DNA from: Clostridiales bacterium | GTDB taxonomy: Bacteria > Bacillota > Clostridia > Lachnospirales > Lachnospiraceae | Reading direction: 5' to 3' | Length of the DNA: 64,000 bases | Assembly: GCA_021204085.1 (NCBI GenBank) | Contig: JAJPZY010000033.1 | Span: forward strand, 1 to 64,000 | Shown here: positions 9,232 to 24,740 of the stretch, piece by piece | How positions within the stretch are numbered: the first letter of the stretch is position 1 | How the letters are laid out: the number at the start of each line of letters is the position of its first letter | Notes under the pieces: model-generated | Told to the model about the DNA's origin: nothing | What the model saw: the letters and a program-made list of their open reading frames with translations, nothing else | The model's database searches: none | Position numbers and translations under genes: made by a program

Positions 9232-11772
9232 ATGGCAAAATATAACACGGCAAAGATGCCGAAGTCCGGTCGTATTACCCGCATGGTAGAGCATCTTTTT
9301 GCGAAGATGCCGGAGATTGAGTCGGCGAGAGCAGTTCTGATCACCGAGTCCTATCGTCAGACAGAGGACAAGCCGGAGGTGATGAAAAAAGCACTTGCAT
9401 TTGCTCATATTCTGGATCATATACCGATTATTATCCGTCCGGAAGAACTGATTGTAGGAAGCACAACCCTTGCGCCGCGGGGGTGCCAGACGTATCCGGA
9501 GTTTTCCTATGAGTGGCTGGAAGCGGAGTTTGATACGGTTGCGGTTCGGGAGGCGGATCCTTTCTATATTTCAGACCAGGCAAAACGGGAGATCGCAGAG
9601 GCTGATCGTTACTGGAAGGGAAGGACGACAAGTGAGCTGGCCACTGCCTATATGGCTCCGGAGACAAAAAAGGCCATGGCGCACAACATGTTTACCCCCG
9701 GGAATTATTTTTATAACGGTGTTGGACATATTACGGTTCAATATGAAAAGGTGCTGGCAATTGGTTTTGAAGGAATTATGGCGGAAGCGCAGGCAGAGCT
9801 TGACGCGTGCAGCGTGGGGGATGCGGATTATGCCTCGAAGCATATTTTCCTGGAATCTGTGTTGATCAGCTGCGCGGCAGCTGTCCGTTATGCACGCCGT
9901 TATGCGGATCTGGCGAAACAGCAGGCAGAGGTGTGCGGGGATGCGCAGCGCAGGCAGGAGCTTTTGCAAATTGCCGCAAATTGCGCAAAAGTCCCGGGAA
10001 AGGGAGCAGAGGCCTTCTGGGAGGCGTGCCAGAGTTTTTGGTTTGTGCAGCAGCTGATTCAGATTGAATCATCGGGACACTCGATTTCTCCGGGGCGCTT
10101 TGACCAGTATATGTATCCGTATTATAAGAAGGATCTGGATGCGGGGAGGCTGAGCCGTGAGTTTGCTCAGGAATTGATTGACTGCATCTGGGTAAAATTA
10201 AATGATCTGAATAAGTGCAGAGACGGAGAGAGCGCGAAGGGATTTGCGGGATACAGCCTGTTTCAGAATCTGGTCGTCGGCGGTCAGAATGCGAAAGGAC
10301 TGGATGTGACCAATGATCTGTCCTTTATGTGCATTGACGCATCTGCTCATGTCTTTCTTCCGCAGCCGTCCCTGTCCATTCGTGTATGGAACGGTTCGCC
10401 GCAGGATCTTCTGATTCGGGCGGGGGAGCTGACACGGACGGGCATTGGTTTTCCGGCTTATTATAATGATGAGGTAATCATTCCCTCTCTGATGAGCAGA
10501 GGGCTGCCCTTGGAGGAGGCGCGGGAGTATTGCATCATCGGCTGCGTGGAGCCTCAGAAGCCGGGAAAGACGATGGGATGGCATGACGCTGCTTTTTACA
10601 ATATGTGCCGTCCGCTGGAGCTGGTGTTCTCGAACGGTGTGGATTGCGGAGAACAGATCGGACCGCAGACCGGCGATGTGGAACAGATGCAGACATTTGA
10701 AGAATTCTATGAGGCGTACTGTACGCAGCAGAATTATTTTATTTCCCTGCTGGTCAATGCAGATAATGCGATCGACCAGGCGCATGCGGATCGCGCGCCG
10801 CTTCCGTTCCTGGCATCCATGGTGGATGACTGTATGAAGCGGGGAAAGACCTGCGAACAGGGCGGCTGTGTCTATAATTTCACCGGCCCGCAGGGATTCG
10901 GTATTGCCAATGTGGCGGATTCCCTGTATGCGGTAAAGAAACTGGTTTTTGATGAGCAGAAAGTTTCCATGAGGGATCTCAAAAAAGCACTGATGTTTAA
11001 CTTCGGAAAGACAGACGAGCCGCTGGTGGTGGCGCAGATTGCCGGCGATGTGGCGCGTGAGTTTGTCAATCAGGGCGTGACGCCGGCTCCGAATGTGGTG
11101 GCGGAGACATCGCGGCAGATCATTGCGGCGTCGGTGACGCCTGAAGATCGGAGAAAATTCGAGGATATTCAGAAAATGATCGGCGAGGTTCCGAAGTACG
11201 GAAATGATGATGAGGTGGTAGATCATTTTGCGAGGGAAGCGGCCTATACATATACAAAACCGCTTTTGAATTATCATAATCCGAGAGGTGGCCAATTCCA
11301 GGCAGGACTGTATCCGGTTTCGGCGAATGTTCCGCTGGGCGCCTGCACGGGAGCGACGCCGGACGGCCGCTATGCGGGCATGCCGGTGGCGGATGGAGTA
11401 TCTCCGAGCGCCGGGCGCGATTCGCAGGGACCTACGGCGGCGGCCAATTCCGTTTCTACTCTGGATCACGGAATTGCCTCTAACGGCACGCTGCTGAATA
11501 TGAAATTCCATCCGTCGGCTTTGAGCGGCGACACCGGGCTGGAGAATTTTGTCAGCCTGATCCGCACCTATTTTGACCGTAAGGGAATGCATATGCAGTT
11601 TAACGTGGTTTCCAGAGAAACCCTGTTGGATGCACAGGAACATCCGGAGAATTACAGGCATCTGGTGGTGCGTGTCGCCGGGTATTCCGCGTTGTTTACT
11701 ACGCTGTCGCGCAGCCTGCAGGATGATATCATCCGCAGAACAGAACAGGGCTTTGGCGACACAAGGGGCTAG
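9232..11772 (+). CDS. Glycyl radical enzyme, B12-independent 1,2-propanediol dehydratase-like
   Basis: Thiyl/acid motif EYCIIGCVEPQ; glycyl radical motif VVRVAGYSALF near the C-terminus; BMC context. Confidence 0.93.
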   Translation: MAKYNTAKMPKSGRITRMVEHLFAKMPEIESARAVLITESYRQTEDKPEVMKKALAFAHILDHIPIIIRPEELIVGSTTLAPRGCQTYPEFSYEWLEAEFDTVAVREADPFYISDQAKREIAEADRYWKGRTTSELATAYMAPETKKAMAHNMFTPGNYFYNGVGHITVQYEKVLAIGFEGIMAEAQAELDACSVGDADYASKHIFLESVLISCAAAVRYARRYADLAKQQAEVCGDAQRRQELLQIAANCAKVPGKGAEAFWEACQSFWFVQQLIQIESSGHSISPGRFDQYMYPYYKKDLDAGRLSREFAQELIDCIWVKLNDLNKCRDGESAKGFAGYSLFQNLVVGGQNAKGLDVTNDLSFMCIDASAHVFLPQPSLSIRVWNGSPQDLLIRAGELTRTGIGFPAYYNDEVIIPSLMSRGLPLEEAREYCIIGCVEPQKPGKTMGWHDAAFYNMCRPLELVFSNGVDCGEQIGPQTGDVEQMQTFEEFYEAYCTQQNYFISLLVNADNAIDQAHADRAPLPFLASMVDDCMKRGKTCEQGGCVYNFTGPQGFGIANVADSLYAVKKLVFDEQKVSMRDLKKALMFNFGKTDEPLVVAQIAGDVAREFVNQGVTPAPNVVAETSRQIIAASVTPEDRRKFEDIQKMIGEVPKYGNDDEVVDHFAREAAYTYTKPLLNYHNPRGGQFQAGLYPVSANVPLGACTGATPDGRYAGMPVADGVSPSAGRDSQGPTAAANSVSTLDHGIASNGTLLNMKFHPSALSGDTGLENFVSLIRTYFDRKGMHMQFNVVSRETLLDAQEHPENYRHLVVRVAGYSALFTTLSRSLQDDIIRRTEQGFGDTRG

Positions 11773-11802: not shown

Positions 11803-12600
11803 ATGAACGAAAGAACGAACATCACCGGCAGAATCTTCGATATCCAGCGTTACTCCATTCACGACGGTCCGGGCATCCGCACGATCGTTTTCCTGAAAGG
11901 GTGCGTCCTTCGGTGCCGCTGGTGCTGCAATCCGGAATCTCAGGAATATGGGATTCAGACCATGCGGACGGCGGACGGCGGGGAAAAAATTGTCGGACGG
12001 GATGTGACTGTGGGAGAGGTTATGGATATGGTGGAACGCGACCATCCGTATTACCGCAGAAGCGGCGGCGGCCTGACACTGTCGGGCGGCGAGAGCCTCT
12101 GTCAGCCGAAATTTGCCGGAGCGCTTCTGGCTGAGGCAAAAAGCAGAGGAATCTCTACCGCCATGGAGAGTATGGGATGCGCTCCATGGGAAGTGATTGA
12201 AGGAATTTTGCCCAGCTTGGATCTCTATCTGATGGATATCAAGCATACGAACCCGGCGAAGCACAAGGCCTTTACCGGGAGGAGCAATGAACTGATGCTG
12301 GAAAACGCCAGACGAATCGCGGCGTCGGGGTTGACGGATCTTGTGATCCGCGTCCCGGTGATACCGACCTTCAATGAGACGCCGGAGGAAATTGCCGATA
12401 TTGCCCGGTTTGCGGACAAGCTGCCCGGTGTAACGAGGATTCATCTGCTGCCGTACCACCGGCTCGGCCAGGATAAATACACCGGCCTGGGCAGAGAATA
12501 TACCATGACGGATATCCGGCCGCCGGAAAATGAGCATATGCAGATGTTAAAAAAGACCGTAGAGAGTGTATCCCGGCTGCACTGCCATATCGGCGGATGA
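11803..12600 (+). CDS. Glycyl-radical enzyme activating protein (radical SAM)
   Basis: CVLRCRWC = CX3CX2C; SGGGLTLSGGE motif; directly downstream of the GRE. Confidence 0.93.
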   Translation: MNERTNITGRIFDIQRYSIHDGPGIRTIVFLKGCVLRCRWCCNPESQEYGIQTMRTADGGEKIVGRDVTVGEVMDMVERDHPYYRRSGGGLTLSGGESLCQPKFAGALLAEAKSRGISTAMESMGCAPWEVIEGILPSLDLYLMDIKHTNPAKHKAFTGRSNELMLENARRIAASGLTDLVIRVPVIPTFNETPEEIADIARFADKLPGVTRIHLLPYHRLGQDKYTGLGREYTMTDIRPPENEHMQMLKKTVESVSRLHCHIGG

Positions 12601-13082: not shown

Positions 13083-13592
13083 ATGATGAAAAGACTGATA
13101 CTGATGGGCCGCAGTATGGCGGGCAAAACAACGCTTACGCAGGCGCTGCGGGGAGAGGAAATCCACTATTATAAGACGCAGGACATTCACCATTACGGAA
13201 GTGTCATTGACACGCCGGGGGAATATGCCCAGAGCAGACGGCTTGGGAAGGCACTGGCGCTTTACACTTACGAGGCGGATATTGTCGGTATCCTGGCGGC
13301 GGCCAATGAGCCTTACTCTATTTTTCCACCGAATGTCACCTGTCAGGCGAACCGGGAATGCATCGGCATTGTGACGAAGATTGACCGCCCGGATGCCAAT
13401 GTGCCGCAGGCAGACCGGTGGCTTCGGAATGCCGGATGTGAAAAGATTTTTCATGTTAATTCTCTGGACGGTACCGGTGTGGCGGAGATCATTGGTTACC
13501 TGAAAGAGCAGGAACGTGACGATCCCGGATGCGCAAAAGAGGGTCTGAAAACCGAGCGGGATCATACAAGAGGCAGCAATTCAAATTTTTAA
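13083..13592 (+). CDS. EutP/PduV family GTPase-like protein
   Basis: P-loop GRSMAGKTTLTQAL; DTPGEYAQSRRLGKAL; VTKID. Confidence 0.9.
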   Translation: MMKRLILMGRSMAGKTTLTQALRGEEIHYYKTQDIHHYGSVIDTPGEYAQSRRLGKALALYTYEADIVGILAAANEPYSIFPPNVTCQANRECIGIVTKIDRPDANVPQADRWLRNAGCEKIFHVNSLDGTGVAEIIGYLKEQERDDPGCAKEGLKTERDHTRGSNSNF

Positions 13593-13630: not shown

Positions 13631-14488
13631 ATGATGAACGAAATGGAAATCAAAAAACAGATCTGTGAGATCGGAAAGAAAATTTATAACCGCGGCATGG
13701 TTGCGTCAAATGACGGCAATATTTCCGTAAAACTTAACGACCACACATTTTTATGCACACCGACGGGAGTATCCAAGGGATTTATGACACCAGAGTACAT
13801 TTGCAAAGTAGATGAAAACGGCAATGTAATTCAGGCAAACAAGGGGTTCAAACCGTCGTCTGAGATCAAGATGCATATGAGAGTGTATCAGAAGCGCCCG
13901 GATGTGGGGTCTGTAGTACATGCTCATCCGATTTACGCGACATCCTTTGCGATCGCAGGCATTCCGCTGACACAGCCGATCATGCCGGAGGCGGTTATCG
14001 CACTGGGATGTGTTCCAATCGCAGAGTATGGTACACCTTCTACCATGGAAATATCCGACAGGCTGGAGAAGTATCTGCCCTATTTTGACGCGGTTCTCCT
14101 GGAGAATCACGGCGCTCTGACCTGGAGCACAGATCTGCTGGCGGCTTATCACAAGATGGAGAGTGTGGAGTTTTATGCGGAGCTTCTCTATCATTCAAAG
14201 GTTCTCGGCGGACCGAAGGAATTCGATAAGGAAAATGTGAAAAAGCTGTATGAGATCCGCCGGAAGTTCGGCATGCCGGGGAAACATCCCGCCAATCTCT
14301 GCCTGAATAAGGATGGCGAAAACTGCCATAACTGCGGCGGAAGCTGTGCGGAGTACAAGAACTTCCCCGGATATGAATATGATTTTGTTGGTGGCGGATG
14401 CGACAACAGCAGCGCAGGCCAGAGCGGCAGCGTGGATGAAGCGACCATCGCGGCAATTGTACAGAAAGTTATTGCAGAGATGAAATAA
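13631..14488 (+). CDS. Class II aldolase, fuculose-phosphate aldolase-like, with C-terminal encapsulation-peptide-like helix
   Basis: VVHAHPIYATSFAI zinc motif; C-terminus VDEATIAAIVQKVIAEMK. Confidence 0.88.
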   Translation: MMNEMEIKKQICEIGKKIYNRGMVASNDGNISVKLNDHTFLCTPTGVSKGFMTPEYICKVDENGNVIQANKGFKPSSEIKMHMRVYQKRPDVGSVVHAHPIYATSFAIAGIPLTQPIMPEAVIALGCVPIAEYGTPSTMEISDRLEKYLPYFDAVLLENHGALTWSTDLLAAYHKMESVEFYAELLYHSKVLGGPKEFDKENVKKLYEIRRKFGMPGKHPANLCLNKDGENCHNCGGSCAEYKNFPGYEYDFVGGGCDNSSAGQSGSVDEATIAAIVQKVIAEMK

Positions 14489-14538: not shown

Positions 14539-15930
14539 TTGGAAATCACAGAAACTCAGATCAAAAATATTGTGCAGCAGGTTATGGCGCAGATGCAGCT
14601 GAACGGCGATACAAAAGCGATGCACGGTGTTTTTGCGGATATGGACACGGCGATTGCGAAAGCGAAGGAAGCACAGAGGACGGTGCGTGTGATGTCCATG
14701 GATCAGAGAGAAAAGATTATTTCTGCAATGCGAAAAAAGATTAAGGAAAATGCGGAGACTCTTGCGAGAATGGGCGTGGAGGAGACCGGCATGGGAAATG
14801 TCGGCGACAAGATCTTAAAGCATATTCTTGTGGCGGAAAAGACGCCGGGGACAGAAGATATTACGACGACTGCATGGTCCGGCGACCGTGGTCTCACACT
14901 GGTGGAAATGGGGCCGTTCGGGGTTATCGGGGCGATTACGCCCTGCACGAATCCCAGCGAAACGGTGCTTTGCAACACGATGGGGATGCTTGCGGGGGGA
15001 AATACCGTAGTTTTTAATCCGCATCCTCAGGCGGTAAAAACCTCCATTTTCGCAATCAACCTGCTCAATGAGGCTTCTCTGGAAGCGGGCGGTCCGGACA
15101 ATATTGCATGCACTGTTGAAAAGCCCACACTGGACAGCAGCGCTGTCATGATGAAGCATCCGGATGTGCCGCTTCTGGTAGCGACCGGGGGTCCCGGCGT
15201 GGTCACCGCAGTCCTCTCCAGCGGCAAGCGCGGCATCGGCGCGGGCGCGGGCAATCCGCCGGCGCTGGTAGATGAGACGGCAGATGTGAAAAAAGCAGCG
15301 GAAGATATTGTAAACGGATGTACGTTTGATAACAACCTTCCCTGCATCGCAGAGAAAGAAATCGTTGCGGTGGACAGCATCTGTGACGAGCTGATGCGTT
15401 ACATGGTGGAGGAGCAGGGATGCTATCTGGCTTCAAAAGAGATCCAGGATAAACTGATCGCCACTGTGTTTACAGAGAAAGGCGCACTGAATCGGAAGTG
15501 TGTGGGCAGGGATGCCAAAACCCTTCTGGCAATGGTGGGGGTGACTGTTCCGGACAGTATCCGCTGCATTACCTTTGAAGGGGAGATGGAAAACCCGCTG
15601 ATCGCAGAGGAACTGATGATGCCGATCCTGGGTGTTGTCCGCGCGAAAGATTTCCCGGATGCGGTAAAGAAATGTGTATGGCTGGAACACGGGAACCGCC
15701 ATTCGGCGCATATTCATTCCAAGAATGTTGACCGGATCACGGAATATGCGAGGGCGATGGATACCGCAATTCTTGTGAAAAACGGCCCGTCTTACGCGGC
15801 ACTCGGATTTGGCGGCGAGGGTTTTGCGACTTTCACGATCGCCAGCCGTACCGGTGAGGGGTTAACCAGCGCGGCCAGCTTTACCAAGAGAAGAAGATGT
15901 ACAATGTCAGACGCTTTGTGTGTCCGCTGA
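14539..15930 (+). CDS. CoA-acylating aldehyde dehydrogenase (PduP-like) with N-terminal encapsulation-peptide-like helix
   Basis: PTNP-like ITPCTNPSETVLCN and NGCTFDNNLPCIAEKE; N-terminus MEITETQIKNIVQQVMAQM; TTG start. Confidence 0.92.
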   Translation: MEITETQIKNIVQQVMAQMQLNGDTKAMHGVFADMDTAIAKAKEAQRTVRVMSMDQREKIISAMRKKIKENAETLARMGVEETGMGNVGDKILKHILVAEKTPGTEDITTTAWSGDRGLTLVEMGPFGVIGAITPCTNPSETVLCNTMGMLAGGNTVVFNPHPQAVKTSIFAINLLNEASLEAGGPDNIACTVEKPTLDSSAVMMKHPDVPLLVATGGPGVVTAVLSSGKRGIGAGAGNPPALVDETADVKKAAEDIVNGCTFDNNLPCIAEKEIVAVDSICDELMRYMVEEQGCYLASKEIQDKLIATVFTEKGALNRKCVGRDAKTLLAMVGVTVPDSIRCITFEGEMENPLIAEELMMPILGVVRAKDFPDAVKKCVWLEHGNRHSAHIHSKNVDRITEYARAMDTAILVKNGPSYAALGFGGEGFATFTIASRTGEGLTSAASFTKRRRCTMSDALCVR

Positions 15931-15957: not shown

Positions 15958-17160
15958 ATGGAAATGAATCAAAATCAGGTAGAAGCCATTGTGCGGCAGG
16001 TTCTGAACAACTTATCCGGAACTTCTGCAGGCAAAACGGCGCAGGCGGGGAAGCAGGTTCCGAAGACTGCCCGTGTGGCAATGCTGACTTCTCTGGAGAA
16101 CTTTGAAATTAAGGAATTTCCCATACCGGAGGTCGGGGACGACGATATTCTGGTAAAGGTAGAGGGGTGCGGAATCTGCGGGACAGATGCACACGAGTTT
16201 AAGAGAGATCCCTTCGGATTGATCCCGGTAGCTTTGGGACATGAGGGCACCGGCGAGATCGTAAAGATGGGCAAAAATGTAAAAACAGACAGTGCCGGCA
16301 AGCCGGTTTCGGTAGGTGATAAAGTAGTAACCTGTATGATTTTCCAGGACAACCCGGATATAACCATGTTTGACCTGAACAAACAGAACGTGGGCGGGGC
16401 TGATGTATACGGCCTTTTGCCGGATGACGACGTTCATTTAAACGGATGGTTTTCCGATTACATTTTTATCCGCGGCGGTTCGACATTTTTTAATGTCAGC
16501 GACCTGGACCTGGATTCAAGAATTCTGATTGAACCCTGCGCGGTATTAGTGCATGCGGTGGAACGGGCAAAAAGTACGGGAATCCTGCGTTTTAACAGCA
16601 GGGTAGTCGTGCAGGGCTGCGGCCCCATCGGGCTGATCTGCATCGCCGTGTTAAAGACGATGGGTATTGCGAATATCATTGCCGTAGACGGAAATGAGGG
16701 AAGACTGGAATTCGCGCAGAAGATGGGCGCGACCGGCAGTGTCAACTTTAAGGATTACGGCGGCGCAGAAGAGATGGCAAAAGGAATCGCGGAGCAGTTC
16801 GGAGGACATCTGGCGGATTTCGCTTTCCAGTGTACCGGTTCTCCGGCCGGACACTCGAATATTTATAAGTTTATTCGCAACGGCGGAGGCTTGTGTGAGC
16901 TTGGATTCTTTATTAACGGCGGCGATGCGACGATCAACCCGCACTTTGATATCTGTTCAAAAGAGATCACGACGGTGGGAAGCTGGGTGTACACCCTGAG
17001 AGATTATGCAACGACGTTTGACTTCCTGAAAAGCGCCAATGCGATCGGGCTGCCGATGAAAGAACTGATTACCGATAAATATCCGCTGAGCCAGATCAAC
17101 GAAGCGTATCGTAAGAACCTTGCAATGACAGGCCTGAAAATTGCGGTTATGGCGGATTGA
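15958..17160 (+). CDS. Zinc-type medium-chain alcohol dehydrogenase with N-terminal encapsulation-peptide-like helix
   Basis: GCGICGTDAHEF and GHEGTGEIVKMG zinc motifs; N-terminus MEMNQNQVEAIVRQVLNNL. Confidence 0.9.
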   Translation: MEMNQNQVEAIVRQVLNNLSGTSAGKTAQAGKQVPKTARVAMLTSLENFEIKEFPIPEVGDDDILVKVEGCGICGTDAHEFKRDPFGLIPVALGHEGTGEIVKMGKNVKTDSAGKPVSVGDKVVTCMIFQDNPDITMFDLNKQNVGGADVYGLLPDDDVHLNGWFSDYIFIRGGSTFFNVSDLDLDSRILIEPCAVLVHAVERAKSTGILRFNSRVVVQGCGPIGLICIAVLKTMGIANIIAVDGNEGRLEFAQKMGATGSVNFKDYGGAEEMAKGIAEQFGGHLADFAFQCTGSPAGHSNIYKFIRNGGGLCELGFFINGGDATINPHFDICSKEITTVGSWVYTLRDYATTFDFLKSANAIGLPMKELITDKYPLSQINEAYRKNLAMTGLKIAVMAD

Positions 17161-17197: not shown

Positions 17198-17515
17198 ATG
17201 GATGAGAGAGCAGTGGGAATGCTGGAGGTCTACGGCCTGGTGTGTGCGTTTCTGGCAGCGGATGCCGGATGTAAAGCGGCTGATGTTACACTGGAGCCTT
17301 TTGATAAGAATAAACCGGCCAATGCGGATTCCCTTCCCGTACCGCTTTTGGTTACAGTAAAATTCCGGGGAAGCGTGTCCGATGTGACAGCAGCCGTAGA
17401 AGCCGGACGAAAGGTGGCGGAGGCCACCACGGGAGTTGTAGTCAGCCATGTGATTCCCAGGCCGACACAGCATACATTGAAAATGTTGGGAATCTGCGCT
17501 TTTGACAAAGATTGA
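17198..17515 (+). CDS. BMC-H shell protein with altered, extended pore-loop segment
   Basis: BMC fold (AVGMLEVYGLVCAFLAADAGCKAADV...SHVIPRPTQHTLKML) with FDKNKPANADSLPVPL where PduA-type proteins have KIGSG. Confidence 0.88.
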   Translation: MDERAVGMLEVYGLVCAFLAADAGCKAADVTLEPFDKNKPANADSLPVPLLVTVKFRGSVSDVTAAVEAGRKVAEATTGVVVSHVIPRPTQHTLKMLGICAFDKD

Positions 17516-17554: not shown

Positions 17555-17842
17555 ATGAAGCAGGAAGCATTGGGAATGATTGAAACCAGAGGATTGACAG
17601 CGGCGATCGAGGCGGCAGACGCGATGACGAAGGCCGCGGAGGTGGCGTTGGTCGGGACGGAAAAAATCGGTTCCGGTCTGGTGACTGTAATGGTTCGCGG
17701 AGATGTCGGAGCCGTAAAGGCAGCCGTAGAGTCCGGTGCGGCGGCAGCAAGCCGTCTGGGTGAGCTGGTGGCACAGCACGTCATTCCGAGACCGCACAGT
17801 GATGTGGAAAATATTCTGCCCGGTTTTCCTGAGGGGAAGTAA
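17555..17842 (+). CDS. BMC-H shell protein (PduA/J-like)
   Basis: [56 protein letters not shown]. Confidence 0.95.
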
Positions 17843-17845
17843 TTC

Positions 17846-18157
17846 ATGGGTACATCATACGGATTAATCGAGGTTTCCGGCATAGTTGCTGCAATTGATT
17901 GTCTGGATGCGATGTGCAAGGCTGCGGAAGTTGAACTGGTGACGTGGGAACGAAAGCTGGGAGGCCGTCTTGTGACAGTGATCGTCGAGGGGAGTGTAGC
18001 TGACGTGAAGGCGGCGGTTGAGGCCGCAGCGTCTGTCGCAAAGCGGAATGATCACATTTTCGCCGCAAGCGGAGTGATCGCCGCACCCTGCGAGGAGACC
18101 CGGAGGATGGTCAGGCTAAGCGCAAAGCGTCTGGCTGAAAAGAAGCCGGAAGCGTAA
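17846..18157 (+). CDS. BMC-H shell protein, divergent
   Basis: [54 protein letters not shown]. Confidence 0.9.
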
Positions 18158-18252: not shown

Positions 18253-18531
18253 ATGGCACAGGAAGCATTAGGAATGGTTGAAACCAGAGGTCTGGTAGCA
18301 GCAATTGAGGCAGCTGATACCATGTGCAAAGCAGCCAATGTTGCGCTGGTCGGCACGGAAAAGATCGGCTCCGGTCTGGTAACTGTGATGGTTCGCGGCG
18401 ACGTCGGCGCAGTAAAATCTGCTGTAGAAGCGGGAGCAGCCAATGCGGAAAGACTCGGTGAGCTGGTAGCACAGCATGTCATCCCGAGACCGCACAACGA
18501 CGTAGAAGGAATTCTTCCGAAGATTAAGTAA
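18253..18531 (+). CDS. BMC-H shell protein (PduA/J-like), close paralog of 17555-17842
   Basis: [56 protein letters not shown]. Confidence 0.95.
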
Positions 18532-18693: not shown

Positions 18694-19338
18694 ATGAATC
18701 AAAAGCAGATAGAAGAAATCACGCGGATGGTCTTATCCTCCATCCAAAAAGAAATGGGCAGGAGCGACGGTTTTTCGGTGCCTGTGGGAGTCAGCAACCG
18801 TCATATTCATCTGAGTCAGGAGGATGTGGAAATCCTTTTCGGAAAGGGGCATCAGCTGACCAAAAAAAAGGAACTCATGGGCGGACAGTATGCCTGTCAG
18901 GAATGCTGTACGATCGTGGGATTGAAGCTGCGGGCAATTGAAAATGTCCGTGTTCTGGGTCCCGCGCGGAAAGCAACGCAGGTGGAAATCAGCAGTACGG
19001 ACGCCAGAAAACTGGGCATTCAGGTGCCGGTGCGTGAATCCGGGGATATTGCGGGAAGCGCGCCGATCGCTATCGTTGGACCGAAGGGAGCCGTTTACTG
19101 TCAGGAAGGCTGTATCGTGGCGGCGCGGCATATTCACATGGCGCCGGCTGACGCGGCTGCCTGCGGGGTAAAGGACGGCGATTATGTCAGCGTAAAGGCA
19201 GACAATGAGAGAGGAACGACTTTCCATCAGGTAAAAATCCGTGTGGATGAGTCCTTTACACTGGAGATGCATATTGACACGGATGAAGCGAATGCATGTG
19301 AGATCGGTACCGGCGACAGGGTCACCATACTTGCGTGA
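18694..19338 (+). CDS. pduL: Phosphate propanoyltransferase PduL with N-terminal encapsulation-peptide-like helix
   Basis: VPVGVSNRHIHLSQEDVEILFG; CIVAARHIHMAPADA; N-terminus MNQKQIEEITRMVLSSIQKEM. Confidence 0.94.
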   Translation: MNQKQIEEITRMVLSSIQKEMGRSDGFSVPVGVSNRHIHLSQEDVEILFGKGHQLTKKKELMGGQYACQECCTIVGLKLRAIENVRVLGPARKATQVEISSTDARKLGIQVPVRESGDIAGSAPIAIVGPKGAVYCQEGCIVAARHIHMAPADAAACGVKDGDYVSVKADNERGTTFHQVKIRVDESFTLEMHIDTDEANACEIGTGDRVTILA

Positions 19339-19405: not shown

Positions 19406-19678
19406 ATGTTGATAGGAAAAGTGACAGGAAGCATCGTTTCAACGCGCAAACAGGAAAATCTGATCGGCAACAAATTTATGATCGTTGAGCCGATCGGAAT
19501 CATGGGCGGTGAGACAAAGCAGGTGATTGCTATTGATAACATCGGTGCCGGCATCGGTGAATATGTGCTGGTCGCGCAGGGGAGCGCAGCGCGGATCGGA
19601 TGCGGGATGCCGGATGCGCCGGTAGACGCGGCGATTGTCGGTATCATAGATGATATCGGAGAATTGGATCGATCATAA
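19406..19678 (+). CDS. BMC vertex protein (EutN/CcmL family)
   Basis: MLIGKVTGSIVSTRKQENLIGNKFMIVEP...DNIGAGIGEYVLVAQGSAAR. Confidence 0.94.
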   Translation: MLIGKVTGSIVSTRKQENLIGNKFMIVEPIGIMGGETKQVIAIDNIGAGIGEYVLVAQGSAARIGCGMPDAPVDAAIVGIIDDIGELDRS

Positions 19679-21009
19679 TGAAAATAGAGGAATTAAGCAA
19701 AATTTTGCGTGAGAGCGGTGTCGTCGGAGCCGGAGGCGCAGGATTTCCGACCTATGCCAAGCTTTCGGAAAAAGCAGATATTGTTCTTATGAACTGTGCG
19801 GAATGCGAACCTCTGTTAAAACTGCATCGACAGCTTTTGAGTGCGCACACAGAGGAAATTCTGCAGGCTTTTGCGCTGATTGCAGAGACAGTGGGCGCAA
19901 AGGAAGCGATTATAGGAATTAAAAAAGAATATACCGGCACAATCCGTGCCATTCAGGAATATATAGCGGCATTTCCGGGAATGCGGATACATGAACTCCC
20001 GGGCGCCTATCCCATGGGAGATGAGGTTGTGCTGATCTATGAAGCCACCGGAAAGACCGTACGGCCGGGCGGTCTTCCCATCGAACAGGGGGTTGCGGTT
20101 TTTAATGTAGAGACACTCTATAATGTTTACCGCGCAGTCTGGGAGAACCAGGGGGTGACTTCAAAATATGTCACTGTTGTGGGTGAGGTGGAACATCCTG
20201 TCACCGTCCGGGTACCGATTGGTATGCCGGTTGCGGAAGTAACGGCCATGGCGGGAAGATGCAAAACGGAGGATCCGGTTTATCTGCTCGGCGGTCCCAT
20301 GATGGGAAATTTCGGCAAGGCGGGGCAGCCGGTGACGAAAACCACAAACGCGATTATCGTTTTGGACAGACAGCATCCGCTGGTGCTGAAGAAGCAGAGC
20401 CGTTTTACAACGGATGTGGCGCGGGCTGCAAGTACCTGCTGTCAGTGTCAGACATGTACAGACCTGTGCCCCAGGCATAATCTGGGTCATCCGATCCGTC
20501 CGCATTTGTTTATGCGCGCAGCAGCGAACCGGGATTTTCGTGATCTGGAGCCGTTTCTGGATACCATGTTCTGCAGCTCCTGCGGCCTGTGTGAGATGTA
20601 CAGCTGTCCGCAGGGACTCAAACCGCGGAGCATGATTGCGGAATATAAAAACGGACTTCGCAAAGCGGGAGTGCGCCCGCCGGAGCGGACGGCAAAGCCG
20701 GTGAAGGAAGCACGGGAATACCGCAGAGTTCCGGAGAACCGTCTGCTGGGGCGGCTTGGGCTGCAAAAATATGATGTGGAGGCGCTGCTGGACGATCAGG
20801 TCCGAACGGGCCGGAAGGTAAAAATTATGCTGAGCCAGCATATCGGCGCTCCTGCGAAGGCAGATGTGGCAAAGGGGGCGTCTGTTCGGGCAGGACAGGT
20901 GATTGCGGCAGCAGCAGATGGCCTGAGTGTAAATATCCATACACCATTGTCAGGCATTGTCACGGAAGTTACGGAAAGATATGTGACGATTGCGGCGGAT
21001 GAAGGATAA
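19678..21009 (+). CDS. PduS-like RnfC-related Fe-S/flavin protein
   Basis: GVVGAGGAGFPTYAKL; two Cys clusters CCQCQTCTDLCP and CSSCGLCEMYSCP. Confidence 0.92.
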   Translation: MKIEELSKILRESGVVGAGGAGFPTYAKLSEKADIVLMNCAECEPLLKLHRQLLSAHTEEILQAFALIAETVGAKEAIIGIKKEYTGTIRAIQEYIAAFPGMRIHELPGAYPMGDEVVLIYEATGKTVRPGGLPIEQGVAVFNVETLYNVYRAVWENQGVTSKYVTVVGEVEHPVTVRVPIGMPVAEVTAMAGRCKTEDPVYLLGGPMMGNFGKAGQPVTKTTNAIIVLDRQHPLVLKKQSRFTTDVARAASTCCQCQTCTDLCPRHNLGHPIRPHLFMRAAANRDFRDLEPFLDTMFCSSCGLCEMYSCPQGLKPRSMIAEYKNGLRKAGVRPPERTAKPVKEAREYRRVPENRLLGRLGLQKYDVEALLDDQVRTGRKVKIMLSQHIGAPAKADVAKGASVRAGQVIAAAADGLSVNIHTPLSGIVTEVTERYVTIAADEG

Positions 21010-21056: not shown

Positions 21057-21605
21057 ATGCAGCGTGCGATCGGAATGATAGAATTTAAAACGGTTTCCGC
21101 GGGAATCACAGCGGCTGATCAAATGGTCAAAACCGCGGAGGTGGAGATCCTGGAGGCACAGACTGTCTGCCCCGGAAAATACATAGCCATTGTGGCGGGA
21201 GACTTAAGTGCCGTAAAAGCAGCGGTGGATCGGGCGCGGGCGACCCGGCCGGAGGAGCTGATCGATGACTTTGTCCTGGGAAATCCGGATGAATCCATTT
21301 TTCCGGCTATCTACGGCACCAGCCAGATCGGGGAGGTTGCCGCGTTGGGAATTCTGGAGACTTACGATGCCGCGTCGATTATCGTAGCTGCGGATATTGC
21401 AGCCAAAACAGCGATTGTAAAACTGATCGAGCTGCGCATTGCCAAAGGAATGTGCGGGAAATCCTATATGCTGATTACCGGTGAGGTGGCTGCCTGTGAG
21501 GCGGCAATCGCGAAGGCAAGGGATTCCGTCGGGGAAAAGGGAATGTTCCTTGATTCGTCGGTTATTGCGCGGCCGGACGCGCAGATCTGTAAGGCCATTC
21601 TGTAA
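21057..21605 (+). CDS. Tandem BMC-T shell protein, PduT-like
   Basis: Two BMC domains (AIGMIEFKTVSAGI... and ALGILETYDAASIIVAAD...); Cys38 in TVCPGKY. Confidence 0.92.
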   Translation: MQRAIGMIEFKTVSAGITAADQMVKTAEVEILEAQTVCPGKYIAIVAGDLSAVKAAVDRARATRPEELIDDFVLGNPDESIFPAIYGTSQIGEVAALGILETYDAASIIVAADIAAKTAIVKLIELRIAKGMCGKSYMLITGEVAACEAAIAKARDSVGEKGMFLDSSVIARPDAQICKAIL

Positions 21606-21644: not shown

Positions 21645-22442
21645 ATGCTGGCTGTTGAGAGAAGAAAATTAATTTTAGAGCAGCTTCATGAAGAGAAACA
21701 TGTTGTGGTCAGTGAATTGTCCCGGCGGTTTTCCGTGTCGGAGGAGACGATCCGGCGGGATCTGGAACGGTTCGAGAAAGAAGAACTGGTAACAAAAAGC
21801 TATGGCGGAGCCGTTCTGAAGGAGAGCGTCGGCACGGAAGTTCCCTTCAAGATCCGGAAAAAGAGAAATGTGCTGGGCAAACGGGTAATCGGCGAGATTA
21901 TTGCGGATTCCATCGCGGATGGCGACCATATTCTGCTGGATCCGAGCACCACGGCGCTGTTTGTGGTGAAGATGCTTCGCAGCGCCGGAAAGAAAAATAT
22001 CACGATCATTACGAATTCCGTGGAAGTGCTGATGGAATGTGCCGAATACAATGATTGGGAGGTAATCTCTACCGGAGGCAATATGCAGGCGGAAAAATTT
22101 GCGCTGACCGGACCGCGGGCAATCGCGGGTATTAAGGAGTTTCATGCAGATAAGGCCATTATTTCCTGCCGGGGAATCGATATGAAAAAGGGCCTGACGG
22201 ATACAAATATTATGTTTTCACAGGTAAAACAGACGATGCTGGACAACGCGGCGGAACGGATTCTGGCGGTGAACAGCAGCAAATTTGACCAGGTGTGTTT
22301 TTCCAGAATCTGCGATCTGTCCGGTGTCGACACAGTTGTAACCGATAAGATTCCGACGGAAGCGTGGATGACTTATCTGAGCGATAAAGGGGTGAAATGT
22401 ATCTATGGAGAACAGGACCAGAGTTATAGCATTTGCCAATAA
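21645..22442 (+). CDS. DeoR family transcriptional regulator
   Basis: N-terminal HTH (ERRKLILEQLHEEKHVVVSELSRRFSVSEETIRRDLERFEKE) and C-terminal sugar-phosphate sensor domain. Confidence 0.94.
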   Translation: MLAVERRKLILEQLHEEKHVVVSELSRRFSVSEETIRRDLERFEKEELVTKSYGGAVLKESVGTEVPFKIRKKRNVLGKRVIGEIIADSIADGDHILLDPSTTALFVVKMLRSAGKKNITIITNSVEVLMECAEYNDWEVISTGGNMQAEKFALTGPRAIAGIKEFHADKAIISCRGIDMKKGLTDTNIMFSQVKQTMLDNAAERILAVNSSKFDQVCFSRICDLSGVDTVVTDKIPTEAWMTYLSDKGVKCIYGEQDQSYSICQ

Positions 22443-23196
22443 CAAGGGCGGAAGCGGGAAGACGACAACCTGCGCCAACGTGGGGTATTCTCTGTCCATC
22501 CTCGGGAAAAAAGTACTGCTCATTGACGGCGACATGCAGCTGAATCTGACGCTTTCTTTTTTTGAGGAAGAGCAGGTGATGGAGTTTGCAATGGGAGAAA
22601 AAAATCTCTACCACGCAATTTGCGGACAAAAAGACCTGTCCGAATATGTGATTTCCACCAGGTACGAGAACCTGGATATGATTCCATCCTCCACATTGAT
22701 GAGCGGTATCGAATTTGAACTTTTCACCAAGTGGCAGCGGGAGTTCATTTTAAAGAATTGTCTGAAAAAAATCCGTGAGATCGGCGGGTATGATTATATA
22801 CTCATTGATGCGCCGCCGACTCTCGGCGGCTGGGTGATGAATATTCTTTGTACTTCCGATTATGTGGTGATGCCGGTGGAAGCCAGTCCCTGGGGCCTTT
22901 TCGGTATTGCCAATATGTTTGATTTCCTGGATCAGGTCAGGCAGATGAATCCTGACTTAAGCCTTCTGGGAATTGCGGTCACAAAGATGGATATGCGGAA
23001 GAATTATTATAAACAGACGCTGGAAGCCCTGCATGAGGCGGATGATGTGAAAGTGTTTGATTCCGTGATCCGTATTGACAGTGAGGTGGAATGGGCGCAG
23101 GATAACAGCAAACCTGTCATGGCACATAAGAAAAGCGCAAGGAGCGCCGGGGAATATCTGGCGTTGGCAAAGGAGATGGATGCATTATGTCAGTAG
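22405..23196 (+). CDS. ParA/MinD-family ATPase, McdA-like candidate
   Basis: Deviant Walker A NNKGGSGKTT, LLIDGD, LIDAPPTLG; overlaps the 3' end of deoR. Confidence 0.92.
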   Translation: MENRTRVIAFANNKGGSGKTTTCANVGYSLSILGKKVLLIDGDMQLNLTLSFFEEEQVMEFAMGEKNLYHAICGQKDLSEYVISTRYENLDMIPSSTLMSGIEFELFTKWQREFILKNCLKKIREIGGYDYILIDAPPTLGGWVMNILCTSDYVVMPVEASPWGLFGIANMFDFLDQVRQMNPDLSLLGIAVTKMDMRKNYYKQTLEALHEADDVKVFDSVIRIDSEVEWAQDNSKPVMAHKKSARSAGEYLALAKEMDALCQ

Positions 23197-23519
23197 GAGC
23201 GGCAAGTATCAAAAGAGCAGCCAGTAAGGCGGCGACGGAAGAAGCAGCGAAGAAGGCGGCGGAGATAGAGGAGTCTGTCGGCAAAGACGGAGAGACTGCC
23301 GTGGAAACGACGGAGAGCGAAGCAGCACCGGAAGCAAAGGCTGCGCGCGAAACCGGAAAAAAAGCGGAGAAGAAGACGAGCGGGAGAAAAAGGACATCAT
23401 CGAAAAAGGTAACGTCAGCAACAGTTCCTTCCGTATCTCCTGAAGTCGTCGAAAAAATGAAGCTCAATCAGAATCGGGCAGTCCATCTGACGGAGGAACT
23501 GCCGGTACATTTACTGTAA
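23187..23519 (+). CDS. Small Ala/Lys/Glu-rich low-complexity protein, candidate ParA partner
   Basis: Start codon overlaps the parA stop region (ttATGtcagTAG); conserved-looking C-terminus VSPEVVEKMKLNQNRAVHLTEELPVHLL. Confidence 0.75.
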   Translation: MSVGAASIKRAASKAATEEAAKKAAEIEESVGKDGETAVETTESEAAPEAKAARETGKKAEKKTSGRKRTSSKKVTSATVPSVSPEVVEKMKLNQNRAVHLTEELPVHLL

Positions 23520-23544: not shown

Positions 23545-23573
23545 TTGCGAATCTTCCGGTAAGTCATTATAAT
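23545..23573 (+). promoter_or_regulatory. Promoter of mtnA
   Basis: TTGCGA, 17-nt spacer, TATAAT. Confidence 0.7.
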
Positions 23574-23615: not shown

Positions 23616-24740
23616 ATGGCAAATGCATTGAATCTGGATACGGTCGTCCTCTCGGAGGATGGCAAAAGTATCATTATTCTTGACCAGACCCTGTTGCCGG
23701 GAAAGACGGAGTATCTTTCTCTTAATAAGGCGGAGGATATCTGGGAGGCAATCTATAAACTGCGTGTGAGAGGAGCGCCGGCGATCGGTGTGACCGGAGG
23801 CTTTGCTTATTATATCCTTGCCTCTCAGCTGGATACGGATGACATGGATCAGTTCGTGGCGGAGTGCACGAAGATTATGGAGTATATCAATTCTTCACGC
23901 CCGACGGCTGTGAACTTAAGCTGGGCGTTGAATCGGATGCATGCGGTGCTTTTGGCGGAGAAAGAAGGAAAAACCGTCGCGCAGATGAAGGAGCGGCTGA
24001 AGGAAGAATCCATCGCAATCCGTGAGGAGGACATAGCAATCAGCCGGAACATCGGTGCTTACGGCTATGAGCTTCTTGAAAAACTGGGAAGGGGCGTGGG
24101 TGTGATGACACACTGCAACGCCGGAACGCTGGCTACCGCAAAATACGGCACAGCGCTTGCCCCGATTTATATTGCTCTGGAGCAGGGGTGGGATCCGAAA
24201 AAGGATCTCCATGTGTATTGCGATGAGACCCGGCCGTTGCTGCAGGGTGCCCGGCTCTCCGCTTATGAGATGCAGACAGCCGGCGTCGACACTTATGTGC
24301 AGTGCGATAACATGGCTTCCTACACGATGAAGTCCGGAAAAATCGGGATTATTTTTGTGGGCTGCGACCGTGTGGCGGCGAATGGAGATTTTGCAAATAA
24401 GATCGGTACCAGCGGCGTGGCAATTATCGCAAAACATTACGGAATTCCCTTTTATGTCTGTGCTCCGTCCTCGACGATTGATATGACTTTGGAGTCCGGC
24501 GATGAGATCAATATCGAGCAGCGGAAGGCGGAAGAAGTCACGGAAATGTGGTATGAACAGCGTATGGCTCCGGAAGGCGTGGGAGTTGTGAATCCGGCTT
24601 TCGATGTGACAGATCACAGCCTGGTGACAGGTATTATTACCGAGAAAGGAATCGCGACAGCGCCATTTAAGGAATCATTTGAAAAAATGGGGATTCGCCC
24701 GGTTGAAAAATATGTAGACAAAAAAGAACTCTGCTCTTGA
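23616..24740 (+). CDS. mtnA: S-methyl-5-thioribose-1-phosphate isomerase (MtnA/DrdI family)
   Basis: RGAPAIGVTGGFA; MTHCNAGTLATAKYGTAL; DETRPLLQGARLSAYE; GCDRVAANGDFANKIGT. Confidence 0.93.
   Translation: MANALNLDTVVLSEDGKSIIILDQTLLPGKTEYLSLNKAEDIWEAIYKLRVRGAPAIGVTGGFAYYILASQLDTDDMDQFVAECTKIMEYINSSRPTAVNLSWALNRMHAVLLAEKEGKTVAQMKERLKEESIAIREEDIAISRNIGAYGYELLEKLGRGVGVMTHCNAGTLATAKYGTALAPIYIALEQGWDPKKDLHVYCDETRPLLQGARLSAYEMQTAGVDTYVQCDNMASYTMKSGKIGIIFVGCDRVAANGDFANKIGTSGVAIIAKHYGIPFYVCAPSSTIDMTLESGDEINIEQRKAEEVTEMWYEQRMAPEGVGVVNPAFDVTDHSLVTGIITEKGIATAPFKESFEKMGIRPVEKYVDKKELCS

Follow-up and report, generated by a model that had tools for sequence, protein, structure and literature searches.

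A ParA-type ATPase and a small two-ended adaptor as a candidate McdAB-like positioning system of GRM5 microcompartments in Lachnospiraceae

Introduction

Active, ATP-driven positioning of bacterial microcompartments has been shown for carboxysomes, while for the metabolosomes of gut bacteria it is treated as an open question in the reviews of the field (PMC13052382). In Halothiobacillus neapolitanus, the first 20 residues of the carboxysome adaptor McdB are both necessary and sufficient for binding to the ATPase McdA, with K7 being critical (PMC12204374), and an aromatic residue at the C-terminus of McdB is needed for carboxysome binding, Tyr being a fair substitute for Trp (PMC11321042). ParB proteins carry an N-terminal motif of aliphatic residues with one central basic residue that stimulates ParA (PMC12462528). 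Near GRM and PDU operons, putative McdB-like proteins whose last five residues include Tyr or Phe have been reported on the basis of bioinformatics only (Basalla et al. 2024, PMC11321042, citing MacCready et al.), and PduV has been proposed for microcompartment positioning (PMC8262871). The distribution of Pdu microcompartments in Salmonella was unaffected by ParA, MinD or McdAB (PMC12866334), and such positioning is therefore not universal among metabolosomes.

Here, we describe a ParA-type ATPase and the product of the small open reading frame downstream of its gene, referred to as ORF110, in a window of 64,000 nucleotides, by which we mean the whole stretch of DNA analysed (Clostridiales bacterium, Lachnospiraceae; assembly GCA_021204085.1, contig JAJPZY010000033.1). 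An earlier note on this DNA had read the two genes as a pair that positions a propanediol-type microcompartment, with the small protein as an "unrecognised McdB analogue". The McdB-like layout reported below agrees with the analogy, while "unrecognised" goes too far, since McdB-like proteins have already been reported from the vicinity of GRM and PDU operons (PMC11321042). ORF110 probably belongs to the same class as those proteins, the two being likened by description only, and the finding thus falls in a class proposed earlier. The present survey adds a GRM5-restricted distribution that includes unlinked pairs, a two-ended motif, a His variant in the window, a Soj-like ATPase and a partnerless clade.

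Results

Annotation of the window revealed a complete GRM5 (fucose/rhamnose, glycyl-radical propanediol) microcompartment locus, with parA and the small open reading frame located 3' of deoR (Table 1). The assignment follows the GRM5 definition of PMC4207490 and PMC6325248 and is based on the presence, according to Pfam, of a glycyl radical enzyme (GRE) and its activase, a class II aldolase, PduS/PduT, DeoR and shell genes. Names were given by Pfam for the GRE, its activase, PduV, the class II aldolase, PduL, EutN, PduS and the BMC shell genes, whereas RhaB, RhaD, PduP and PduQ were named from sequence and synteny; the second and third BMC-H genes were assigned via homology in relatives and a PF00936 genome scan. 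The four BMC-H proteins are presumed to form the cargo surface. A promoter-like TTGCGA-17-TATAAT element lies at 23545-23573 between ORF110 and the MtnA gene, for which reason the latter is probably a separate transcription unit.

Table 1. Coordinates of the GRM5 locus, the ATPase gene and ORF110 in the window.
Feature	Position	Strand	Basis or remark
Glycyl radical 1,2-propanediol dehydratase	9232-11772	+	Pfam PFL-like, Gly_radical; substrate assigned from GRM5 context
GRE activase	11803-12600	+	Pfam Radical_SAM
PduV	13083-13592	+	Pfam PduV-EutP
Fuculose-P aldolase	13631-14488	+	Pfam Aldolase_II
Aldehyde dehydrogenase PduP	14539-15930	+	Sequence and synteny
Alcohol dehydrogenase PduQ	15958-17160	+	Sequence and synteny
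Four BMC-H shell genes	17198-17515, 17555-17842, 17846-18157, 18253-18531	+	Pfam BMC on first and fourth
PduL phosphotransacylase	18694-19338	+	Pfam PTAC 1.4e-77
EutN vertex protein	19406-19678	+	Pfam EutN_CcmL
PduS	19678-21009	+	Pfam Complex1_51K, RnfC_N
PduT-type tandem-BMC shell protein	21057-21605	+	Pfam BMC, two stretches
DeoR-family regulator	21645-22442	+	Pfam HTH_DeoR, DeoRC; 38-nt overlap with parA
ParA/Soj-type ATPase (McdA-like), 263 aa	22405-23196	+	Pfam AAA_31 2.6e-55
Shine-Dalgarno-like AAGGAG	23170-23175	+	Sequence, within parA 3' end
McdB-like adaptor ORF110, 110 aa, Ala/Lys/Glu-rich	23187-23519	+	Orthologues 3' of parA
N-terminal motif MSVGAASIKRA	23187-23219	+	Conserved; putative ParA-activating peptide
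C-terminal motif ELPVHLL	23496-23516	+	Conserved; putative BMC docking motif
Methylthioribose-1-phosphate isomerase (MtnA)	23616-24740		3' of ORF110

The ParA-family ATPase, which the earlier note had described as overlapping the 3' end of deoR, was confirmed by its Pfam match and carries the deviant Walker A sequence NNKGGSGKTT (Walker A K14-T21, Walker A' D41, Walker B D135); K14, K19, D41 and D135 are invariant among 50 relatives. A single-chain AlphaFold (AF2) model reached a pLDDT of 88.2 and matched Soj (9a6n) and ParA (8ray) as best PDB folds, ahead of the beta-McdA of Cyanothece (6non/6noo/6nop; TM-score ~0.8, 22% identity). The same order was obtained by sequence, with E-values of 2.9e-32 for Soj/ParA versus 6.9e-12 for the only McdA represented in the PDB, a beta-type protein. 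As Soj/ParA ranked ahead of McdA in both fold and sequence, we conclude that the enzyme is a Soj-like ATPase and no close relative of beta-McdA; on this comparison with the beta-type McdA in the PDB, it does not qualify as an orthologue of carboxysome McdA. Its C-terminus is formed by the last helix, EYLALAKEMDALCQ; with regard to the membrane-targeting amphipathic extension found at the C-terminus of MinD, inspection by eye revealed no basic extension there. Judged from its sequence, the ATPase is intact and has a Soj fold.

ORF110 starts 10 nt ahead of the parA end, as the earlier note had observed for a 110-aa Ala/Lys/Glu-rich frame beginning in the last parA codons, and this arrangement is kept in relatives, in which the partner frame starts 10-47 nt ahead of the parA end in 73 of 74 scored cases and a purine-rich Shine-Dalgarno stretch lies within the parA 3' end. 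Translational coupling of ORF110 to parA is suggested by this arrangement. The protein gave no match in Pfam or NCBIfam, and hence none to a ParB domain.

Approximately 67 distinct adaptor orthologues were found 3' of parA; they share M-x-V-G-x-x-S-I-K-R-A at the N-terminus and L-P-x-(Y/H/F)-L-L at the C-terminus, the two being joined by a low-complexity linker that varies in length. The N-terminal segment singled out in the earlier note coincides with the conserved G-x-x-S-I-K-R-A, while of the C-terminal segment it had highlighted, the last six residues (L-P-x-Y/H-L-L) are the conserved part. In the motif-selected set of 67, the N-terminal invariance arises partly by construction. A set of 65 distinct proteins was also considered, for which downstream frames had been picked only on composition (A, K, E, T, P and S making up more than half), size and the presence of a Shine-Dalgarno-like stretch ahead of them. 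Here, Pro at -5 and Tyr/His/Phe at -3 were present in 65/65 and G-x-x-S-(I/L/M)-x-R near the N-terminus in 64/65, the exception having the motif upstream of a misassigned start. Position -3 is occupied by Y in 51, H in 14 and F in 2 proteins of the motif-selected set (n = 67), and the window adaptor carries His in place of the Tyr of most relatives; among the last five residues, a Tyr or Phe is present in 53 of the 67 orthologues but not in the window copy. The invariant C-terminal Trp of carboxysome McdB is absent from the adaptor, which is thus not an McdB sensu stricto. Mean codon-position diversity at the conserved ends of the 67 distinct genes was 0.58 at position 3, 0.12-0.13 at position 2 and 0.22-0.39 at position 1, and the conserved ends together with this third-position variation led to the conclusion that ORF110 is no chance reading frame.

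Adaptor lengths range from 72 to 232 aa, with nearly all of the variation residing in the linker, which consists of 20% A, 18% K, 11% E and 11% T with only 6% FWYILMC, and which therefore shares with McdB a repetitive, biased composition and low hydrophobicity. A charged N-terminus, here the GxxSIKRA motif, and a gene beside that of the ATPase are further McdB features found in the adaptor. Net charge per linker residue has a median of +0.08 (window +0.02, range -0.07 to +0.18). AlphaFold (AF2, 28 orthologues) predicted a helix at residues 5-28, a middle with pLDDT ~47-54 and ends at 76-79. As to the disorder prediction called for in the earlier note, the low confidence of the AlphaFold middle is joined by a FoldIndex that was borderline (+0.007 for the window adaptor, negative in 49 of 74 orthologues), an index that is borderline for such alanine-rich sequences; on these predictions, the middle of the adaptor is likely disordered.

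A scan of genome contigs provided the best 80 ParA relatives, nearly all from Lachnospiraceae, and BMC shell genes were located in the examined flank of 28 of these best 80 loci and of 21 of the best 26 (L009-L034). A partner frame was recovered by the strict motif in 74 of 114 ParA loci. Three loci of other Clostridia (L044, L067, L078) contain the same pair by a GRM locus ordered shell genes, GRE, activase, PduV and parA, and two others (L029, L033) show DeoR-ParA-adaptor with no shell genes in the flank examined. We also surveyed 299 genomes of the family, nearly all of different genera, for ParA (E<=1e-60) and for shell genes (PF00936). ParA was detected in 34 and shell genes in 92 of the 299, and all 34 ParA-positive genomes were BMC-positive (hypergeometric p 2.5e-20). 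When GRM5-like genomes were defined as those with BMC genes plus a GRM5-type aldolase (n = 62), 33 of the 34 ParA-positive genomes fell among them (p = 1.4e-25; both p-values ignore kinship between genera), corresponding to 33 of 62, so that about half of the GRM5-like genomes are devoid of ParA. The sole ParA-positive genome outside this set (G042) is a 270-contig assembly with one weaker BMC match, and ParA was found in none of the 13 survey genomes with the aldolase but without BMC genes. Two ParA-positive genomes from outside the family were likewise BMC-positive. The earlier note had made its reading depend on closest ParA homologues residing in BMC loci and on conservation of the small frame, and both expectations were borne out.

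Linkage is not required for this co-occurrence. In G144, ParA and BMC genes share one contig at a distance of ~875 kb, and in G179, G250 and G110 ParA lies on a contig other than that of the aldolase, >100 kb from the contig ends; in unlinked genomes the ParA-adaptor pair is found with neither DeoR nor AraC genes adjoining. That unlinked pairs still co-occur with the compartment argues against hitch-hiking. Among plasmid records there was no match above 42% identity to the window ParA, and distant ParAs of that collection, at 42% and 37% identity, have a ParB gene next to them instead of the adaptor. One such record (L195, Acetoanaerobium noterae), labelled plasmid pTPELB2, in which a ParB-like gene comes after the gene of a ParA with 42% identity, measures 2.6 Mb, a size that suggests a misfiled chromosome.

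No adjacent partner is recognisable in one clade of the ParA tree, which comprises 32 rows, has a support of 100/92 and lies within partner-bearing rows; the same holds for a non-family genome (G374). Where linkage was readable, parA of this clade lies 5' of the rhamnose/GRM5 genes, often with an AraC-type regulator after it, and the GRM5 loci are otherwise complete. A search for an adaptor in trans by the C-terminal pattern in seven partnerless genomes gave about as many matches as the reversed-pattern control, none of which stood at the end of an adaptor-like frame among the loci examined, while the N-terminal pattern, applied to the same seven and to three partner-bearing genomes, returned one unrelated protein only from the partnerless ones. 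Scanning the GRM5 loci of the clade also revealed nothing adaptor-like. Fusion of the adaptor to a longer BMC-H4 in these loci was considered and rejected, as the extra length stems from in-frame start codons lying upstream, and the real C-termini carry no extension. The partnerless-clade ParA shows near-fixed differences at four sites (52, 71, 169 and 235), and since it stays conserved, another partner is presumably used. Apart from this, the loci L172-L184 of the clade contain an extra EutS-like small protein of ~120 aa (IVQELVPGKEITIAHLIASP) and a DUF336-like protein, both named by eye and both seemingly missing from the window locus, which suggests two GRM5 subtypes.

Discussion

We propose that the GRM5 microcompartment has a dedicated positioning system of the McdAB kind, formed by the two proteins ParA and ORF110, a reading to which we assign a probability of roughly 0.78. 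By analogy with the McdB and ParB precedents and given the three-part, McdB-like layout of the adaptor, the conserved pair probably spaces or anchors GRM5 compartments in the cell by a nucleoid-based Brownian ratchet. ATP-bound ParA dimers would coat the nucleoid, and the basic N-terminal helix of the adaptor (GxxSIKRA) would bind the ParA dimer and trigger ATP hydrolysis and release, while the C-terminal LPx(Y/H)LL may dock on the shell or core of the microcompartment. Depletion of ParA around each compartment would then create a gradient by which the compartments are spaced and distributed to the daughter cells. The positioning interpretation of the earlier note is largely supported; ParA binding, shell binding and positioning itself we infer from the sequence features and the distribution of the pair.

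Several other functions were weighed. As the nearest matches of the ATPase by sequence and fold are partition ATPases of the Soj/ParA type, and more distant relatives adjoin a ParB gene, the pair could represent a plasmid, prophage or chromosomal ParAB system for DNA partition that merely neighbours the BMC locus. This is very unlikely, given that the partner has no ParB domain, that the genome possesses its own, separate soj-spo0J pair (C108) and that plasmid matches end at 42% identity; the occurrence of ParA in BMC-positive genomes only comes close to refuting it. Similarly improbable is a role of ORF110 as a direct tether of microcompartments to DNA, resembling Ala-Lys-Pro-rich histone H1 or PhaM, with ParA as a mere regulator. 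KPAAKK-like repeats, a composition known from H1-like proteins, do occur in some orthologues, but the linker is a weak polyampholyte and not strongly basic, and it is the two ends that are conserved and not the linker.

The pair might, on the other hand, control assembly or cargo recruitment through an ATPase cycle on nascent GRM5 compartments instead of their spacing, and the C-terminal motif could bind core enzymes as well as shell proteins, while PduV in the same locus might already serve positioning. We regard this as unlikely, since an adaptor with two ends and a long, variable linker between them suits a tether better than a chaperone. Regulation of deoR/BMC operon expression by the adaptor, with ParA as a signalling ATPase, would accord with the overlap of deoR and parA in the window, their adjoining position in several relatives and the AraC-type gene that follows parA in one clade; the unlinked genomes, which carry the pair with no adjoining DeoR or AraC gene, render such a role highly improbable.

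The positioning reading is favoured by the co-occurrence with BMC genes, the linkage, the unlinked pairs, the differently ordered GRM loci, the conserved ends, the predicted helix with its low-confidence middle and the precedents. Counting against it are the partnerless ParA subclade, the absence of ParA from about half of the GRM5-like genomes, the missing C-terminal Trp and the His variant, the borderline FoldIndex and the Salmonella Pdu data.

With respect to origin, the pairing of the 42% and 37% relatives with ParB suggests that the BMC-linked ParAs go back to a partition-type ATPase that was recruited, although the direction of descent is only inferred, because the outgroup rows of the tree are too distant for rooting. 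As a tentative scenario, Clostridia may have evolved positioning independently of McdAB by recruiting a partition-type ParA and replacing ParB with a new adaptor family, in which GxxSIKRA serves as ATPase tag and LPx(Y/H)LL as organelle tag, for the fucose/rhamnose compartment of gut bacteria, with one clade later losing or replacing the adaptor, perhaps by a partner that forms part of the organelle. For the compartment of fucose and rhamnose breakdown, the pair offers a candidate of two defined, conserved genes with two short tags predicted to mediate binding, and, if the reading is true, these tags could serve for tethering engineered shells.

Among the closest known systems is McdAB of alpha-carboxysomes (H. 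neapolitanus), with which the pair shares a ParA-type ATPase with signature lysine, a small low-complexity adaptor encoded immediately downstream, and a basic N-terminal segment and short conserved C-terminus in this adaptor. The pair differs in that the cargo is a GRM5 metabolosome and that the adaptor ends in LPx(Y/H)LL without Trp, the likeness being one of organisation. With beta-McdA from Cyanothece, the window ATPase has the ParA fold in common, at an identity of only 22%. Soj-Spo0J/ParAB systems resemble the pair in ATPase fold and in a partner N-terminus with aliphatic and basic residues, whereas the partner described here lacks a ParB/CTPase domain and its distribution is BMC-restricted. 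The PduV/EutP GTPase is likewise an NTPase from the same BMC locus that has been proposed for positioning; it is Ras-like, belongs to an unrelated family and is present in addition to ParA, with which it may act jointly or at a separate step. The ParB N-terminal motif is comparable to I8 and R10 of the adaptor, and the layout of McdB, in which an ATPase-binding N-terminus is connected by a spacer to a cargo-binding C-terminus, is the one that the adaptor appears to have in common with it.
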